Shown here one piece after another: positions 36,738-59,105 of a stretch of 64,000 nucleotides of DNA (within the stretch, counting starts at the first letter, position 1; every line of letters begins with the position of its first letter). The notes beneath the pieces were generated by a model. The model was not told where the DNA came from and ran no database searches. It worked only from the letters and a program-made list of their open reading frames with translations. Made by a program: the position numbers and the translations under genes. Origin of the DNA: Thermoplasmata archaeon (GTDB lineage Archaea > Thermoplasmatota > Thermoplasmata > Thermoplasmatales > Thermoplasmataceae); NCBI GenBank assembly GCA_021797555.1, contig JAJZZM010000012.1, forward strand, positions 67,775-131,774. The letters are read 5' to 3'.

Positions 36738-36763
36738 TACGAATTTAGTAAAAATAATACGAA
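36738..36763. promoter_or_regulatory. TACGAA direct repeats before the homocitrate-synthase-like gene
   Basis: TACGAA is found at 36738-36743 and again at 36758-36763, exactly 20 bp apart, just upstream of a CTTTTATTTA box near 36766. This spacing puts both on one DNA face, as for an Lrp/LysM-like activator. Related TACGAT/TTCGTA motifs lie upstream of the aconitase-like gene at 43294. Confidence 0.5.
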
Positions 36764-36801
36764 ACTTTTATTTATGGGGAAATAATATACTATAGATATA
36801 A

Positions 36802-37917
36802 ATGATAGGAATATTAGATTCAACATTAAGAGAAGGTGAACAGACACCCGGAGTTTTATTTAATATGGATCAGAGGGTTAATATTGCAAAACTATTATCA
36901 GATGCAGATGTGAAAATGATAGAGGCAGGCCATCCTGTTGTTTCAGAAGATATATTTAATTCAATAAAATATATAATGGAATTAAAAAATTCAGAAACAA
37001 TAAAATCTGAAATAATTGCACATAGCAGGGCTGTAAACTCAGATATAGATATTGCGTCTTCATTAAATATTGATAGAATAGCTATATTCTATGGCATAAG
37101 CGATTTACATCTAAAATATAAAACACATAAAACTAAAGAAGAAGCATTGAATATAATATATAATTCAATAAATTATGCAAAATCATATGGAATAAAAATT
37201 AGATTCACCGCAGAGGATGCATCAAGAACAGATATAAACTTTTTAAGAGATGTAATAAAAACTGCAGTTTCAGCAGGTGCTGACAGGATATCAATAGCCG
37301 ATACTTTAGGCATATTAACACCTGAAAGGACAAAGTATATCTTTAATAATATAAATGATATAAAAAATGTTGAATACGATTTCCACGGGCATAATGACCT
37401 TGGCATGGCAGTTGCAAATAGTTTGGCAGCGTTTGAATCAGGAGCAACGGTAATACATGCAACCGTAAACGGCTTAGGTGAACGTGTTGGGATAACACCA
37501 ACACAGGTAATTGGAACATTATTAAAATACCATTATAATTTAGATGTCATAAATTTGAGTTTATTAAGGGAGTTATCCAGTACTGTTGAAAAGTACAGCA
37601 ATATACAAATGCCATTAAATGAACCTGTAACCGGAAGCAATGCATTCATACACAAATCAGGTGTGCATGTCAATGGAATAATTAATAATCCTGAAACATA
37701 TGAATTCATGAATCCTGAAATATTTGGCATACAAAGGAGTTTTACAATAGATAAATATTCTGGAAAACATGCATTGATTCAAAAATTAAATAATTTAAAT
37801 ATAAAACCTGATGAAAATATAATATCATATGCATTAAATGAGATAAAAAACAGCAATAAAATATATAATGATAATGATATAATTTCAATGGTAAATAATA
37901 TAAAATCATATAATTAA
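36802..37917 (+). CDS. Homocitrate synthase / 2-isopropylmalate synthase family enzyme (LysS/LeuA-type)
   Basis: This 371-residue enzyme condenses acetyl-CoA with a 2-oxo acid. The catalytic barrel has ILDSTLREGEQTPG at residues 3-16, RFTAEDASRTD, ADTLGILTP and the metal-binding YDFHGHNDLGMAVANSLAA region. GLGERVGITPTQVIG resembles homocitrate synthases (GERNGITP) more than isopropylmalate synthases (GERAGN). The C-terminal regulatory domain of LeuA is missing; only a short helical tail follows. 2-Oxoglutarate is therefore the more likely acceptor, giving homocitrate for lysine. Direct TACGAA repeats sit upstream. The 3' end overlaps convergent arsB-like gene by 12 nt. Confidence 0.85.
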   Translation: MIGILDSTLREGEQTPGVLFNMDQRVNIAKLLSDADVKMIEAGHPVVSEDIFNSIKYIMELKNSETIKSEIIAHSRAVNSDIDIASSLNIDRIAIFYGISDLHLKYKTHKTKEEALNIIYNSINYAKSYGIKIRFTAEDASRTDINFLRDVIKTAVSAGADRISIADTLGILTPERTKYIFNNINDIKNVEYDFHGHNDLGMAVANSLAAFESGATVIHATVNGLGERVGITPTQVIGTLLKYHYNLDVINLSLLRELSSTVEKYSNIQMPLNEPVTGSNAFIHKSGVHVNGIINNPETYEFMNPEIFGIQRSFTIDKYSGKHALIQKLNNLNIKPDENIISYALNEIKNSNKIYNDNDIISMVNNIKSYN

Positions 37918-39192
37918 CGACACAACATATAATGACAGCAATGTAAAAAATAAAACCGGCAAAGCCAGAATTAATCCGATCTTCATATAATATTTATATG
38001 ATATTTTTATTGCATCTTTTCTTTCTAAGGTATATAACCATAACATTGTTGCAAGAGACCCTATTGGTGTAAATTTAGGGCCGATATCATTGCCTATTAT
38101 ATTTGAATACATTAATAATCCCGGATTTTTTAATCCAGATATTGCCAGGTCTCCAACCATTACAGATGGCATATTGTTCATTACCGCAGCATTAAACGCA
38201 AAGAAGAACCCTGAAAATATAAGTGAAAATGGATTCTTAAATGAAATTATATATTTTAAAATACCTATATATATTGCATTTAAACCCTCATTGCTTAGCC
38301 CGAATACTATAATATACATCCCAAGAGAAAATAATACAATCTGCCATGGTGCTATTTTTACTATGTGGTTTGCATCTATCTTGCCGTTTATTCTTGCGTA
38401 TATATAAAAGAATAATGCAAACGGCATTGCTATAAATGCGATATCTATTTTTATTATGCCTGATAAAAAGTAAAAAACCATTAACAGTATTATCATTGGA
38501 AATGCAATTTTAAATATCTTTTTATCCTTTATTAATAAATTAACATCCATATTTTTATCTATTTTATAATTTGTTATCTCCTTTCTATAAAATATATACA
38601 GAACGCCTATGCTTGCAATTATGGAAACAATATCTGGAAAGACCATTATTTCAGTGTATTTTATAAACGTAATATTAAAATAGCCTGCTGTTACCAGATT
38701 CACTAAATTGCTTACAATAAACGGTATGCTTGAAGTATCTGCTATAAAACCCGTTGCCATTATAAATGGCAGTATCTTATTTTTTGGTGTGTTTGACCTT
38801 ATTAAAATGGCATAAACAATAGGTGTTAAAATTAATGCTGTCCCATCATTTGCAAATACTGCAGATATGGCAGAACCAAGAAGTATAATGAGAACAAATA
38901 ATTTTTTCCCGTTGCCTTTCGCATATAGTGCAAGTTTATATGCAATATATTCAAAGAATCCCGCCTCGTCTAAAATAAGTGAAATAATTATTACTGATAT
39001 AAATGTGAATGTGGCATTCCATACTATATTAAAAACCGTTATTATATCAGTAAATGTTGATATCCCAAGTAATACAGTTATCAATGCCCCTATTAAGGCA
39101 GAATAGCCTATTCCTATATTTTTAGGCTTTTTTAATACCAAAATTAATGTTATTATAAATATAATTAATGCTATATAAAATAGGGCCTTCAT
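37906..39192 (-). CDS. ArsB/NhaD-type ion transporter, probable arsenite efflux
   Basis: A 428-residue protein with about 11-12 membrane helices of the ArsB/ion-transporter superfamily. The conserved SAVFANDGTALILTPIVYAIL segment near residues 108-128 and the matching second-half NNMPSVMVGDLAI and NDIGPKFTPIGSLATMLWLYTL are the family's inverted-repeat core. It follows the ArsR-type regulator with a 4-nt overlap (ATGA), which is why arsenite or antimonite export is preferred over Na+/H+ exchange. No ArsA ATPase or arsenate reductase is next to it, so efflux would rely on membrane potential. Confidence 0.85.
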   Translation of the reverse strand: MKALFYIALIIFIITLILVLKKPKNIGIGYSALIGALITVLLGISTFTDIITVFNIVWNATFTFISVIIISLILDEAGFFEYIAYKLALYAKGNGKKLFVLIILLGSAISAVFANDGTALILTPIVYAILIRSNTPKNKILPFIMATGFIADTSSIPFIVSNLVNLVTAGYFNITFIKYTEIMVFPDIVSIIASIGVLYIFYRKEITNYKIDKNMDVNLLIKDKKIFKIAFPMIILLMVFYFLSGIIKIDIAFIAMPFALFFYIYARINGKIDANHIVKIAPWQIVLFSLGMYIIVFGLSNEGLNAIYIGILKYIISFKNPFSLIFSGFFFAFNAAVMNNMPSVMVGDLAISGLKNPGLLMYSNIIGNDIGPKFTPIGSLATMLWLYTLERKDAIKISYKYYMKIGLILALPVLFFTLLSLYVVSLII

Positions 39193-39509
39193 TCATTACA
39201 CTCTACACAGTTGCAAATTTTATCTATTTTATTTCCGGCTATTTCTGTAATTTTTATAATGTTGATTAATGATTTATCCGATATTTTATATATAATGTTT
39301 TTTCCCGATCTATAGCTTATTAATAATCCATTTTCACGCAATTCCCTTAATTTGTGTGATATTAATGGCTGATCTATATTGAAGTTGTTTATTATATCAG
39401 AAACATTTTTCTCGCCGTTTATCAATAATTTTATTATTTTTAGCCTTATTTCATCTGATAACATTTTGTATACATTTAAATCTATAATTTTTTCAGGTTT
39501 TTTTTGCAT
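39189..39509 (-). CDS. ArsR-family transcriptional regulator with C-terminal Cys motif
   Basis: A 106-residue ArsR-type winged helix: LSDEIRLKIIKLLINGEKNVSDI, then the recognition helices DQPLISHKLRELRENGLLISYRSGKNIIYKI. The C-terminus ends in KICNCVECNE, three cysteines clustered as a probable As(III)/metal sensor, a different place from the classical CVCD in helix 3. It precedes the ArsB-like gene with overlapping stop/start codons. The divergent promoter region to 39579 holds the palindrome TTCATATGAA, a candidate operator. Confidence 0.88.
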   Translation of the reverse strand: MQKKPEKIIDLNVYKMLSDEIRLKIIKLLINGEKNVSDIINNFNIDQPLISHKLRELRENGLLISYRSGKNIIYKISDKSLINIIKITEIAGNKIDKICNCVECNE

Positions 39510-39542
39510 CTGTAGTTAATTATTATTATATATAAAATATTT

Positions 39543-39552
39543 TTCATATGAA
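39543..39552. promoter_or_regulatory. Palindrome in the ars/phosphoesterase divergent promoter
   Basis: TTCATATGAA is a perfect 10-bp palindrome about 35 nt upstream of the ArsR-family start and in front of the plus-strand TATA elements. ArsR-type sites often contain TTCA/TGAA half-sites, so an autoregulatory site is plausible. Confidence 0.4.
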
Positions 39553-39578
39553 TATTTATACATATAATTTATATAATT

Positions 39579-40286
39579 ATGAACAATATATATTGTATGA
39601 GGTTGTTTATTATATCGGATATACATGGTAATTACGATGCTCTGAAAACGGCATACGACAATGAAAAATTTGATAAATTAATTTTTCTGGGAGATGCAGT
39701 TGATTATGGACCAGAACCTGAAAAGGTCATAGATTTTTTAAAAATGAATTCGGATATAAATATAATGGGGAATCATGATAATGCAGTAATAAATAATACA
39801 TCGTGCAACTGTTCCTTTGATATGCTTGAATTAAGCGATTTTACAAGAAAAAATATATCAATGAAATTATTATCCAAGGATGACATAAATTTTATGAAAA
39901 CATTTAGTTTAAATAAGGAATTGGATATAGAAAATAAAAAATTCTATTTAACACATGCCTCGCCATATAACAATCTGGATGGCTATTTATTTGCCAGTGA
40001 AGCTGAAAAGGTTTTCAGGGATAAGGATTTTTTTAATAAATATGATTATACTCTTATCGGGCATACGCATTTTATGATGGTATATAGAAATAAAATAATT
40101 AATCCGGGAAGCATAGGGCAACCAAGGGATAATAATTATATGCCATCATATGCTATAATGGATACAGGTAGCAATGAAATTTTGTTTAAAAGATTTAAAT
40201 ATGATAATCAAAAAATGTTATTAAAGCTTAAGGAAGTATTAAACAACGATGAAATTTACAATAAACTTAAGAAATATTATTTATAA
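39579..40286 (+). CDS. Calcineurin-like phosphoesterase (YfcE/MJ0936 type)
   Basis: A 235-residue metallophosphoesterase. The metal sites are classical: FIISDIHGNYDAL near residues 10-22, FLGDAVDYGPEP, IMGNHDNAVI, LTHASPYNN and the GHTHFMMVYRNKIINPGSIGQPRD end. The family hydrolyses phosphodiesters or protein/sugar phosphates, and the physiological substrate is unknown. An internal ATG at 39597 (MRLFIISDIHG) is an equally good start: TATA-like ATTTATAC (39554) and ATTTATAT (39569) elements serve either one. It is divergent from the ArsR gene. Confidence 0.85.
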   Translation: MNNIYCMRLFIISDIHGNYDALKTAYDNEKFDKLIFLGDAVDYGPEPEKVIDFLKMNSDINIMGNHDNAVINNTSCNCSFDMLELSDFTRKNISMKLLSKDDINFMKTFSLNKELDIENKKFYLTHASPYNNLDGYLFASEAEKVFRDKDFFNKYDYTLIGHTHFMMVYRNKIINPGSIGQPRDNNYMPSYAIMDTGSNEILFKRFKYDNQKMLLKLKEVLNNDEIYNKLKKYYL

Positions 40287-40368
40287 TTAATTTTTATTGT
40301 GTTTATTATACTTTACTAAAATACTATTTTCAAATAAATTTATTAACATTGTATTAATTAAGCCCGAT

Positions 40369-41556
40369 ATGGATTACCGTGTCAGGGCTGCATTCGTACA
40401 CGGTGCCAGAGCATTGTATGCGTTAAACTGGATGGATATGGCACCTGCACTTACATATATAAAATCGTATATGAATTTAACAGTAGTTGAACTTGGCTTA
40501 TTAGTAACCTCATTTTATACAGGTATATCCATATTTCAGATTCTTGGAGGTTATTTATCATCATATATAGGTGATAAAAAAACATCATTAATTGGATTAT
40601 TACTTGTTGCAGTATTTGCCATAACTTCAGGCATATCAAATAATTTTACTGAATTAATACTCTCAAGGTTTTTTGCAGGATTATCCGCTGCATTATTCTT
40701 CTCGCCTGCATTAAGCTTATTGGCCTCGATAGTTCCTGAAGATAAATACGCATTCCATATTGGGATTTATAATGGCGCATTTAATGTTGGTGCAGGTGTT
40801 GGTATATTAGGATGGGCATTTTTGGACCAGTATATTGGATATAGAATATCATTTTTAATAGCAGGGATAATAACATTAATACTATTTATCATTTTAACAT
40901 TATTATTTAAGAATATAAAAAACATTAAAACAGAGAAATCAGATATAATTAAAAGCCTGAAAAAAGTATTTTCATCAAAAATGATAATGTTAATTGCATT
41001 TATAGGAATAGGAACAATGGTTGCAGAAACAATTATAGGACAGTTTTTTGTTTATTATCTTGAGACTAAGGGTTTCAGCATTTTATTATCAGGTTCAATA
41101 TCATCCTTATATTTATTTGTTGGATTCTTTGGTGGAATTATAGGTGGATATCATTTCTCAAGGACAAACCATAAAATATTAGTATTTATATTAATAAATC
41201 TTACATTATCATTATTTTTAATATTAATTGGTTTTGTTTATAATTATATATTTATAATAATAATTGCAATAATAATGGGCATGCTTGTTGTTTATGGCTT
41301 TTCAGTAACATACACATTTATAAGATATCTATCAAGGAGAGATTTGGTATCATTAAATTTATCCTTTGTTAACCTTATTCAATTATTAATTGCAGCCATA
41401 GTACCTGTAATATTTACATTTATGGCTGCACATTATAACTATGAAGTTTCATGGGTCCTAATGGGGATAATATCATTAATGTTTCTGCCTTTAATAATAT
41501 TTGTAAGCTCGGGGTTAAAAAATACAATAAATAATTATAAAATACAGAAATTATAA
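40369..41556 (+). CDS. MFS transporter
   Basis: A major facilitator with about 12 helices over 395 residues. Recognisable parts are LNWMDMAPALTYIKSYM, GGYLSSYIGDKKTSLIGL between helices 2 and 3 and SRFFAGLSAALFFSPALSLLASIVPEDK in helices 4-5; helix 1 has the acidic residue typical of drug/sugar porters. The frame runs back to a TTG at 40297, but those 24 codons (Ile/Phe/Asn/Lys rich) look non-coding, so I start at ATG 40369. Substrate unknown. It follows the phosphoesterase on the same strand and is convergent with the LeuD-like gene. Confidence 0.85.
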   Translation: MDYRVRAAFVHGARALYALNWMDMAPALTYIKSYMNLTVVELGLLVTSFYTGISIFQILGGYLSSYIGDKKTSLIGLLLVAVFAITSGISNNFTELILSRFFAGLSAALFFSPALSLLASIVPEDKYAFHIGIYNGAFNVGAGVGILGWAFLDQYIGYRISFLIAGIITLILFIILTLLFKNIKNIKTEKSDIIKSLKKVFSSKMIMLIAFIGIGTMVAETIIGQFFVYYLETKGFSILLSGSISSLYLFVGFFGGIIGGYHFSRTNHKILVFILINLTLSLFLILIGFVYNYIFIIIIAIIMGMLVVYGFSVTYTFIRYLSRRDLVSLNLSFVNLIQLLIAAIVPVIFTFMAAHYNYEVSWVLMGIISLMFLPLIIFVSSGLKNTINNYKIQKL

Positions 41557-42054
41557 TGGTCCTCCCAGCAATTTTTTATTTTTTAATATATTTATTATTC
41601 CTCCATTGTCTATAATGTCCATCAGGAACTGTGGAAGTGGCTTAAAATTTATTTTTTTATTGTTGCTTTTATTTATTATTTCATTGTTTTTTAAATCTAT
41701 ATATACTATATCCCCTTCAATTACAATATTTGTTATTCCCGGTGCCTGCAGTGCCAGAAATCCTGAATTGACTGAATTCCTTAAGAATAATCCATTAATT
41801 GACTCTGCTATTACACACGATATCCCCAAATTTTTAATATTGTCGGCTGCAGGCCTTGATGAACCCGTTCCAAAGTTTCTGCCTGCAACAATGATATCGC
41901 CACGGTTTACCATCCTGGACCATCCCGGCCTGTTTGCGGACATTGCATAGAATGGCTTCTCATCCTCATTTAATGTGTAGCATACCTGCGGATACATTAA
42001 ATCAGTATTGATATCGTCACCGAATAACCATATTTTCCCGTTAATATTATTCAT
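41551..42054 (-). CDS. Aconitase-family small (swivel) subunit, LeuD-like
   Basis: A 167-residue LeuD-type swivel domain, the partner of the large subunit whose gene precedes it with an 8-nt overlap. Family marks are WLFGDDINTDLMYP near residues 9-22 and GRNFGTGSSRPAADNIKNLGI near 59-79, where most LeuD proteins have FGCGSSREHA. The specificity loop near residue 25 reads QVCYTLN rather than the YLRT or YLVT seen in many isopropylmalate isomerases. Homoaconitase for lysine, isopropylmalate isomerase for leucine, or another hydroxy-acid isomerase/dehydratase are all possible; context favours the first. Confidence 0.82.
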   Translation of the reverse strand: MNNINGKIWLFGDDINTDLMYPQVCYTLNEDEKPFYAMSANRPGWSRMVNRGDIIVAGRNFGTGSSRPAADNIKNLGISCVIAESINGLFLRNSVNSGFLALQAPGITNIVIEGDIVYIDLKNNEIINKSNNKKINFKPLPQFLMDIIDNGGIINILKNKKLLGGPL

Positions 42055-43294
42055 TCAAACCACCTGATATATATCCTTTTATTGCTGATATTGCAACAGT
42101 TTTTGCAGATGCCAAATATATTTTTGCATCCTTTGACCCCATCCTTCCCTTGAAGTTCCTTGTTGTTGAACTTATTACGATATCTGTATCGCCAACAACG
42201 CCCATATGCCCTCCCAAACATGCACCGCATGTCGGGTTTGTTACAAGGCCGCCTGCCCCTGCAATTTCATCTATGTATCCAAGTTTTAATGCCTCCCGGT
42301 ATATTTTTGTTGAGGCAGGGGTTACTATAAGCCTTACATTTTTATTTACCCTATTATTATGAAGTATTTCCGCAGCATCCTTTATATCGGATAACCTTCC
42401 GTTGGCACATGAGCCTATTATGCATACATTTATTTCTGTTTTATTCATTTCCGATACGGGCCTTATATTGTTTATTATTCTGTCTGGTAGTGCCACCATC
42501 GGTTCTGTTTCACCCAGGTCAATATCGTATGTTCTATAATAATATGCATTATTGTCAGGTTTTATAGGATTATAATCGTATACATTGATATTGTCCATAT
42601 AGCTTTTCAAAACATTATCATATGGAAATACAGAGAACTCGGCACTTAACTCGGCACACATTGTTGATATTGATGACCTTTGATCCATGGTCAGATGCTT
42701 TATGCCATCGCCGTGGAATTCAATATTATTATTAGGTATATCTCCTGTAGCTTTTGCAATACTGAAGAATACATCCTTGGATGATGTATTATTTTTTATT
42801 TTCCCATTTAAATTTACTTTTATGGTTTCGCCGACCAAAAACCATGTCCTGCCCGTTGCTATTATATTCATAATCTCCGGGGTTCCCAGTCCGCGTCCGA
42901 TTGTATTGAACGCCCCCACTGCAATTGTATGCGAATCCGTATTTGCTATCAGGCTCCCGGGTTTTAAAAAACCCTTTTCAGCAGCTATAACATGGGATAT
43001 CCCACTGCTTCCGGAATCATAAAAATCCTTTATGTTCCATAAATTTGCCAGTTTCCTTAATTTATTTATCCTGTTTGAGATTTCAATATTCGGAGGCGGC
43101 ACAAAATGGTCAAATATTATTGCAATTTTATCGCTGTCAAATGGCCTTAATGGGGGATTGTTAATAAACTCGGGGTGAAGTGCGGCCATATCAGTAATAA
43201 TTGCCCTATCAACATTTACTGTTATTATATCGCCGGGAGAAACCTCTTTTATATTTTCTGAATGGTTTTTTAATATTTTTTCTATTATGTTCAT
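42047..43294 (-). CDS. Aconitase-family large subunit, LeuC-like (homoaconitase or isopropylmalate isomerase)
   Basis: The 415-residue large subunit binds the 4Fe-4S cluster and isomerises a hydroxy-tricarboxylate. Cluster and substrate motifs are VFDHFVPPPNIEI-like IIFDHFVPPP near residue 62, ANTDSHTIAVGAFNTIGRGLGTPE near 119-142, CIGSCANGRLSD near 291 and NPTCGACLGGHMGV near 351-364, the last two holding the three cluster cysteines. It forms an operon with the swivel subunit. Its upstream region contains a TACGAT/ATCGTA inverted repeat and a TTCGTA motif like those before the homocitrate-synthase-like gene, which links the two as one pathway. Confidence 0.88.
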   Translation of the reverse strand: MNIIEKILKNHSENIKEVSPGDIITVNVDRAIITDMAALHPEFINNPPLRPFDSDKIAIIFDHFVPPPNIEISNRINKLRKLANLWNIKDFYDSGSSGISHVIAAEKGFLKPGSLIANTDSHTIAVGAFNTIGRGLGTPEIMNIIATGRTWFLVGETIKVNLNGKIKNNTSSKDVFFSIAKATGDIPNNNIEFHGDGIKHLTMDQRSSISTMCAELSAEFSVFPYDNVLKSYMDNINVYDYNPIKPDNNAYYYRTYDIDLGETEPMVALPDRIINNIRPVSEMNKTEINVCIIGSCANGRLSDIKDAAEILHNNRVNKNVRLIVTPASTKIYREALKLGYIDEIAGAGGLVTNPTCGACLGGHMGVVGDTDIVISSTTRNFKGRMGSKDAKIYLASAKTVAISAIKGYISGGLNE

Positions 43295-43759
43295 GAAAGG
43301 TAATGATAATATTTTATAAAATTATTACTATTTTAGTATTATATATACGATAATCGTAATTAATATTAACATAACCATAGACCATGGCTAGAATTTACAG
43401 TATTTAAAACTATCTTCTATTTTTTCGTAATTCGTTTATTAATATTAATATTATAAATTAATATTTCAATATTTAATATTTTTTATTATTTTATTTAATA
43501 TTTTATGATTTAAAAAAACTAATACAGTAACATAATGTTTTTCTATATTATATATATGCACAAATAATATGTACTGCCAATATGCCTTAGTATTATTAAA
43601 AAATTTTTTAAAGAAATTTAATATATTGAAAAAGTTTTAAACTTTTTATATTACTAAATTATATAATAAAATACAACGTTAAATATTAATTTAAATGATA
43701 TATAAATAATAATATAAAGAATAATCTATAAATATATAGGACTGCTTAACTAAAATATT
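43295..43759. other. AT-rich gene-free gap with putative operator and a possible remnant
   Basis: The 465-nt gap is almost pure A/T. Besides the sites at 43346-43358 and 43424-43429 it contains, on the minus strand from 43636 to 43466, a 56-codon open frame without a start (with KAYWQYILFVHIYNIEKHYV in the middle) ending in TGA. That is long for chance in such AT-rich DNA and may be a decayed membrane-protein fragment. The right end carries the AAATATATAG promoter element of the MFS gene at 43760. Confidence 0.45.
43346..43358. promoter_or_regulatory. TACGAT-A-ATCGTA inverted repeat upstream of the LeuC-like gene
   Basis: A perfect 6-1-6 inverted repeat about 52 nt before the LeuC-like start and about 30 nt upstream of its TTTTATAAAA box (43310-43320, minus strand). 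A further TTCGTA (complement TACGAA) lies at 43424-43429. Together with 36738-36763 it suggests a shared regulator. Confidence 0.5.
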
Positions 43760-58871: not shown

Positions 58872-59105
58872 CTATAATCTAATTTCTGTCAGAGTCTTTG
58901 TGTCAAGTACACCGCTTATAGACCGTATATCCTTTATAACTAGATTTCCAACTTCACCTATATCGTTAATATCTAATTTCGCTATCATATCATATTGACC
59001 CAGCAATGGGTGGACTTCGGTTATATATTTAAGCTGTGAAATCCGGTTATAGACCTCATGTTCCTTGCCTGGAATTATACTTATAAGCACAAATGCTATA
59101 GACAT
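58872..59105 (-). CDS. Stand-alone Lrp/AsnC ligand-binding (RAM) domain protein
   Basis: A 77-residue protein consisting only of the Lrp/AsnC C-terminal RAM domain, the alpha/beta amino-acid sensing module: IAFVLISIIPGKEHEVYNRISQLKYITEVHPLLGQYDMIAKLDI and the final IRSISGVLDTKTLTEIRL. There is no helix-turn-helix, so it cannot bind DNA by itself; such stand-alone domains are thought to bind small effectors or to assemble with full-length Lrp proteins. It leads a probable two-gene operon with the small membrane protein. A leader of AT-rich DNA precedes it. Confidence 0.85.
   Translation of the reverse strand: MSIAFVLISIIPGKEHEVYNRISQLKYITEVHPLLGQYDMIAKLDINDIGEVGNLVIKDIRSISGVLDTKTLTEIRL

Follow-up and report, generated by a model that had tools for sequence, protein, structure and literature searches.

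Tandem 13-bp palindromes at three lysine operons of a Ferroplasma-type archaeon suggest a regulon of a TvFL3/LysM-like Lrp protein

The closest described counterparts of the element reported here are the regulons of lysine-responsive proteins of the Lrp family. Lysine is given in a review table as the listed ligand of three such proteins, Thermoplasma volcanium TvFL3, Pyrococcus FL11 and Sulfolobus LysM, and archaeal Lrp proteins are described in review as having sites two or three helical turns apart. In Sulfolobus acidocaldarius, a ten-gene LysM expression module includes lysWXJK, homocitrate synthase, an aconitase-type dehydratase pair and an APC permease, and control of all ten genes by LysM is put forward there as the authors' hypothesis (PMC8578740). 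Our comparisons with the literature draw on PMC2995911, PMC4046817, PMC8578740 and PMC4177876. Here we describe a pair of 13-bp palindromes at promoters of lysine genes in a 64,000-nucleotide stretch of DNA from a Thermoplasmata archaeon (GenBank assembly GCA_021797555.1, contig JAJZZM010000012.1; G000:C5:67775-131774), hereafter the window. The genome it comes from measures 1.94 Mb; Ferroplasma acidarmanus Fer1 (NC_021592.1), listed here as G026, belongs to the same genus. We propose, with a probability of about 0.72, that the promoters belong to a lysine regulon read by a TvFL3/LysM-like Lrp at tandem 13-bp sites.

Two promoters of the window carry the element. They lie 6.5 kb apart with arsRB and other genes between them, the separation given in an earlier, sequence-only reading of this DNA that had noticed shared TACGAA and TACGAT words. 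That reading had placed two TACGAA repeats 20 bp apart before the TATA box of the synthase gene, and they are indeed found at 36738-36743 and 36758-36763 on the + strand, followed by the likely TATA box TTTTATTTAT (36766..36775, +; from sequence and alignment) and the ATG at 36802. Comparison with relatives resolved these words into halves of 13-bp palindromes of the form TAC-N7-GTA. The first TACGAA is half of the distal site TACGAATTTAGTA, a 13-bp near-palindrome at 36738..36750 (+) recognised from the sequence and its relatives, and the second opens the proximal site TACGAAACTTTTA (36758..36770, +; sequence and alignment), 20 bp further on and degenerate, so that only one of the two sites of the synthase is full. 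The 3' half of the proximal site continues into the TATA box, and the site may partly be a B recognition element (BRE) and TATA box. Of 13 synthase promoters compared, 12 have the form TACGAA[A/T]TTAGTA; that of UBA567 has TGC instead of TAC. The gene itself encodes a homocitrate synthase of the LysS type with 371 amino acids (36802..37917, +; TIGR02146, 447.4 bits against a cut-off of 413.55).

The second promoter precedes the genes of an aconitase-type pair on the - strand, a LeuC-like large subunit of 415 amino acids (42047..43294, start at 43294) and a LeuD-like small subunit of 167 (41551..42054; TIGR02087, 140.8 bits against a cut-off of 108.95), which are predicted to be the LysT-like and LysU-like subunits of a homoaconitase. 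Its distal site TACGATTATCGTA (43346..43358, -; genome scan and sequence) is the palindrome that had been noticed at 43346-43358 as TACGATAATCGTA on the + strand, and it is the only TACGA-WWW-TCGTA among the genome's own consensus matches. A second full palindrome, TACTAAAATAGTA (43326..43338, -; scan and alignment), lies 20 bp nearer the gene and had been overlooked; 4 bp after it comes the likely TATA box TTTTATAA (43314..43321, -; sequence and alignment). The TTCGTA that the sequence-only reading had counted with the palindrome is present at 43424-43429 (TACGAA on the - strand), but its part is doubtful because it has no palindromic partner and G052 and G060, the two closest relatives, are the only ones in which a similar word was seen at that place. 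In their own genome the synthase and LeuC-like modules both stand 64 and 44 bp before the start codon.

The notable unit is a longer one, the 13-bp palindrome TACKAWNWTMGTA repeated with a pitch of 20 bp beside a TATA box. The hexamer had been thought notable since words with CG would be rare in this DNA, an argument that would fail if it stood alone: TACGAW occurs 35 times in the window against 37.4 expected from dinucleotide shuffles, CpG depletion is moderate (observed/expected 0.66), and the hexamer was rejected as a signal. All three matches of TACKAWNWTMGTA in the window are at the synthase and LeuC-like promoters. The whole 1.94-Mb genome has five, where a dinucleotide model built from 178 kb of its sequence predicts 2.4, and the remaining two precede APC-type amino-acid permease genes on contigs C12 and C9. 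The number alone is no strong excess, and it is the locations that carry the weight. With one mismatch allowed, the window holds 6 matches against 3.67 expected, a count reached by 21 of 100 shuffles. A reversed-pattern control in the genome scan, which differs from TACKAWNWTMGTA in composition, gave 17 matches with 18.2 expected. Ten relatives contain 37 consensus matches. By a tally of listings over 11 genomes, 24 of 42 matches are at synthase, leuC-like or lysW promoters; by eye, no lysine gene was noticed at the 16 matches of the relatives outside these promoters, many of which lie inside open reading frames (ORFs), and one of which is 270 bp before an APC permease gene (G052:C28). A 33-bp tandem pattern allowing up to 3 mismatches, in which one position was relaxed after the lysW promoter had been seen, has 8 matches at 5 places in the genome: the leuC-like promoter without mismatch, lysW with 2, and the synthase, the C12 permease and an AT run with 3 each.

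The consensus had been defined from the synthase and LeuC-like sites, and the promoter of the third lysine operon, lysW-Y-Z-J-X-K on contig C14, was held out and examined afterwards. LysW, LysX and LysZ of this operon were identified by models and the other genes by position and sequence. Its promoter reads TACGAATTTAATA, 7 bp, TACATAATTCGTA and then TATA, which is a variant of the module. Relatives retain the site pair in variant forms; an exact consensus is found in 2 of 10 lysW promoters (G035 and G019), and the lysW promoter of G000 is without one. The scan of the remaining lysine and leucine genes that the sequence-only reading had named as a check thus finds a module variant at the lysW operon and no consensus at leuA. 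The latter gene is paralogous to the synthase and lies in a separate leuACDB operon (G000:C24); its promoter has no consensus match (best 2 mismatches in 250 bp), nor has any other place on C24. Leucine and lysine genes as a single regulon were rejected, given that no consensus match stands at leuA. The lysW leader is long (L079 6379-6530), has conserved stretches in 7 of 8 aligned genomes and is short in G019. A second BRE/TATA-like element was observed in this leader near ACAAATATTTATTAA, before the start codon.

That the shared pathway is lysine synthesis via alpha-aminoadipate, as had been suggested as probable, is borne out by the synthase, which exceeds the homocitrate-synthase equivalog cut-off, and by the separate leuACDB operon. 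The genes present for the LysW form of this pathway are homocitrate synthase, the homoaconitase-type pair, LysW, LysX and LysZ. The LeuC/D-like pair is grouped with the lysW and synthase genes in G019, G011 and G057 and is therefore very likely the homoaconitase, with its substrate judged from gene context. No homoisocitrate dehydrogenase was seen in the lysine loci read in G000 and G019, and no genome-wide search for one was made. There is a leuB-like gene in the leu operon, and a 374-amino-acid ORF on C5 is dehydrogenase-like by eye; LeuB or a divergent dehydrogenase-like ORF (L083 7993-9117, L068 7343-8422) may serve both pathways. The two APC permease genes of the same genome with single upstream consensus sites (L066 7113-7125 and L067 7134-7146), one of them the C9 permease, are candidates for lysine transporters.

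We scored 34 promoters of Ferroplasma-type genomes (13 synthase, 11 leuC-like and 10 lysW) at 24 constrained positions, allowing pitches of 19-21 bp, a range picked after 20 had been seen. The best pitch was 20 bp in all 34, with 0-5 mismatches, and 31 had no more than 3. Because the three promoters serve different genes, their common pitch amounts to at least three cases. Left out of the 34 were the G035 synthase, whose gene is split over two contigs (a consensus match precedes it), the synthase and lysW of G036, which are partial or were not found, and, from the UBA567 and TL/WH genomes, the promoters of lysW and of the leuC-like gene; the leuC-like promoters of L211-L213 are among the control regions. 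This control comprised 306 upstream regions from 30 loci, each 220 bp before a mechanically called ORF of at least 120 amino acids, spurious ORFs included; the fetched loci L146, L148 and L151-L153 were left out of it. Each of the 26 control regions with up to 3 mismatches is a target or a divergent neighbour in the same intergenic region, and none of the other 280 reaches this level. The next-best control regions are two at 4 mismatches, one of which is the C12 permease at a 19-bp pitch. In the alignments the boxes are kept while their flanks vary, and the module is conserved in three genera.

Five AsnC-domain matches occur in the genome, and three of the ORFs have the length that a full Lrp requires. 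The best candidate for the binding protein has 129 amino acids (G000:C14:184015-184401); its nearest NCBIfam model is LysM and its nearest solved structure is FL11. It is 52% identical to a protein of G024, and both have the recognition helix SEGTVRKRI. We take G024 to be T. volcanium and its protein to be TvFL3, the latter through a Gly36 that would correspond to its residue 37, counting Met. Yokoyama and colleagues reportedly obtained in 2009, by systematic evolution of ligands by exponential enrichment (SELEX), the TvFL3 site TACGA[AAT/ATT]TCGTA, and are said to have assigned its specificity to Gly36. Measured against this site, the sites here are 13-bp palindromes TACGA-WWW-TCGTA or close variants, and, with 20 bp as the best pitch in 34 of 34 promoters, at least two of them share one helical face. 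The Gly-type helix [S/T]EGT[I/V]RKR[I/V] occurs in 19 of the 20 loci L118-L137, in 18 by script and in G048 (TEGTIRKRI) by reading; G014 is the exception, with SEAT at the recognition helix. In most of 15 loci read, the Lrp gene stands between a gene for 83-91 amino acids and Alba, followed by a gene resembling geranylgeranyl diphosphate (GGPP) synthase.

An ArsR-family protein at 39189-39509 of the window was rejected as the regulator since it adjoins arsB; the protein's own site was not examined. A 77-amino-acid ORF at 58872-59105 of the window carries the ligand-binding (RAM) domain of Lrp proteins and is too short to hold a DNA-binding part as well. No Rfam RNA element was found in the window (0 at gathering thresholds).

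Beyond the computed sites, pitch, genome locations, conservation and shared pathway, the identity of the binding protein is suggested by the reported TvFL3 site, the recognition helix shared with the presumed TvFL3 and the similar gene set of Sulfolobus LysM; lysine as the ligand and the sign of control we infer. The earlier suggestion of one Lrp/LysM-type regulator for two lysine steps gains support from the lysW module, the conservation in three genera, the LysM-like gene set and the TvFL3-like protein. We envisage a lysine regulon of three operons, those of the homocitrate synthase, the LeuC/D-like homoaconitase and lysWYZJXK, possibly with an APC permease in addition. Each core promoter would offer a pair of 13-bp sites separated by 20 bp, or roughly two turns of the helix, with the proximal one abutting or overlapping the BRE/TATA region, and dimers of the 129-amino-acid TvFL3/LysM-like Lrp would occupy both on one face of the helix. 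Lysine would alter the assembly of these dimers, and when plentiful it would, in the version we slightly prefer, act as co-repressor, the TATA-binding protein (TBP) and transcription factor B (TFB) being blocked and the operons repressed.

Several findings weigh against this proposal. On the side of the sites, the lysW promoters of G018 and G048 have 5 mismatches, close relatives are not independent of one another and several loci repeat one genome. The 3-mismatch matches of the tandem pattern are not significant by number alone (about 2.2 expected by chance; the reversed control gave 2 per strand). Close orthologues of the C12 permease were found in four relatives only; of these, G052 and G060 have the site in altered form and G019 and G036 lack it. 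In the six further relatives there is no close orthologue. On the side of the protein, the 129-amino-acid Lrp scores 108 bits against the LysM model NF040947, under the cut-off of 180, which makes it LysM-like and not LysM. Its gene is family-wide, 52 of 61 genomes giving a best match at E<=1e-25, and is also present in genomes where no close synthase was found; the protein must have other jobs too. The closeness of the Lrp gene to lysK is probably accidental, given the order of 83-amino-acid gene, Lrp, Alba and GGPP synthase in most of the loci read, and this linkage was rejected as evidence of role. Finally, no TAC-N7-GTA occurs in the 3.4-kb locus around the Lrp gene in G000, and autoregulation through a full site of this kind was rejected.

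A variant of the proposal concerns the sign of control: the same protein would work as an activator of the LysM/Ptr2 type when lysine is scarce. According to a review, activation by LysM, Ptr2 and Ss-LrpB, either established or strongly indicated, starts from a dimer site just upstream of the BRE with further sites upstream, and the LeuC-like proximal site, 4 bp before its TATA box, would suit such a position. In the lysW and synthase promoters, however, the proximal site extends over BRE or TATA positions, and in the LeuC-like promoter it nearly does so, an arrangement that suits occlusion. Because of this overlap we slightly favour repression by blocking of TBP/TFB at high lysine, and regard activation as the somewhat less probable but serious contender.

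A regulon with a different reader, either the 152-amino-acid Lrp (C10), the 177-amino-acid Lrp (C5) or an unrelated factor, would account for the 129-amino-acid protein being family-wide and, in most relatives read, not adjoining lysine genes, and there are further Lrp proteins in the genome to choose from. We nevertheless think it unlikely: the recognition helices of the other two read IPRATIFERM and SEATVRRRI, without the Gly, and it is the 129-amino-acid protein that is nearest to LysM and FL11. Far less probable still is that the words are mere core promoter, the BRE and TATA elements of strong leaderless promoters that no regulator reads. Relatives' proximal synthase sites do merge with GAAAAT-TTTATTTAT, which fits the usual BRE consensus and a TATA box, but the distal sites lie at least 15 bp before the TATA box, are near-palindromic and are kept while their flanks vary, and the module, at up to 3 mismatches, is missing from 280 other upstream regions. 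Chance sharing of short AT-rich words by two of many promoters would agree with the expected frequency of TACGAW and with the lack of enrichment of one-mismatch TACKAWNWTMGTA in the window (6 vs 3.67), and is made negligible by the held-out lysW promoter, the whole-genome locations and the conservation, at promoters linked by function, in three genera.

The proposed Lrp regulon of Ferroplasma-type genomes may have a different counterpart in sister genera. There, 12 promoters of lysW and synthase genes were tested, in G007, G011, G033, G045, G053, G057 and YP3.bin60 (2 of the 6 lysW genes are second copies, in G011 and G053). All have TGACC-N6-GGTCA with 0 or 1 mismatch, 8 of them exactly, and the same 12 show no TAC-type site better than 2 mismatches. 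Such palindromes at lysine-gene promoters are located at L154 8186 and 16403, L155 5655, L158 3137, L156 9285 and L159 5405. In 15 clade-B promoters the best match to the TGACC form has at least 3 mismatches. A protein of about 223 amino acids is encoded divergently from a lysW gene in G011, G053, G033, G057 and G007 (in pieces in the last), and in G011, G057 and G007 an exact TGACC palindrome lies between the two. Its C-terminal match to the ACT domain is over the Pfam cut-off in 3 of 4 proteins tested and under it in G057; Ferroplasma-type genomes have matches to the protein of 22-27% identity or none.

G007 carries both motifs, the TGACC form at lysW and TACGAAATTCGTA at its leuC-like gene. 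The latter is a perfect copy at L158 17699-17711, 31 bp before the leuC-like gene and directly after an APC permease gene whose product is 28% identical to the C12 permease; 0.0014 such sites are expected by chance in that 20 kb and 0.12 in 1.7 Mb. This genome is GC-rich (60% in the stretch read) and 50% complete. In a synthase tree that does not contain G007, five sister-clade genes group together (99/95) adjoining Thermoproteota and apart from 9 of 10 Ferroplasma-type genes; the tenth, of G019, is a long row placed weakly beside the sister-clade group (83/77). The tree is rooted by a long leuA branch, and separate gene acquisition is therefore as possible as rewiring. Our tentative view, which we put at a little under even odds, is that one family uses two unrelated lysine regulators, an FL3/LysM-type Lrp and an ACT-domain protein with TGACC-N6-GGTCA, and that G007 represents a hand-over or a mixed acquisition.

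Among the known systems, TvFL3 resembles the one proposed here in its operator, reportedly TACGA-WWW-TCGTA, in its listed ligand lysine and, if the G024 protein is TvFL3, in the recognition helix and 52% identity. It differs in that a search for the synthase in G024 gave only a 28%-identical match, and the targets of TvFL3 there would therefore differ at least in part. Ptr2 of Methanocaldococcus jannaschii has the consensus GGACGATTTTCGTCC, which shares an ACGA-TCGT core, whereas its listed targets are fdxA, rb2 and rbr. FL11 (PH1519) is likewise a lysine-responsive Lrp and the nearest solved structure, and, in review tables, has lysine and leucine biosynthesis genes among its targets or potential targets. 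Unlike FL11, the system here has no consensus match at the leucine operon, and FL11 has Ser where the 129-amino-acid Lrp has Gly at the specificity position; its optimum site is reportedly also a different one. The gene set of the S. acidocaldarius LysM module closely matches the one found here, the permease only in part, but lysYZ are outside that module in a separate lysYZM operon and here belong to the lysW operon, two anti-correlated genes of the module have no counterpart found here, and the regulator's 108 bits are short of the LysM cut-off. Full-text search listings, with most subscription papers outside their coverage, showed us no such operator and no Ferroplasma or Thermoplasmatales lysine regulon, and the Ferroplasma acidiphilum genome paper (PMC5473848) makes no mention of lysine, aminoadipate, amino acid biosynthesis or Lrp. 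The finding would be a further lysine-responsive Lrp regulon, a kind already known. If it is true, the contrast with the sister genera would provide a clean case for how one pathway changes its regulator, and the lysine-binding Lrp of Thermoplasmatales would gain a concrete regulon of three operons, as LysM has in Sulfolobus and FL11 in Pyrococcus.

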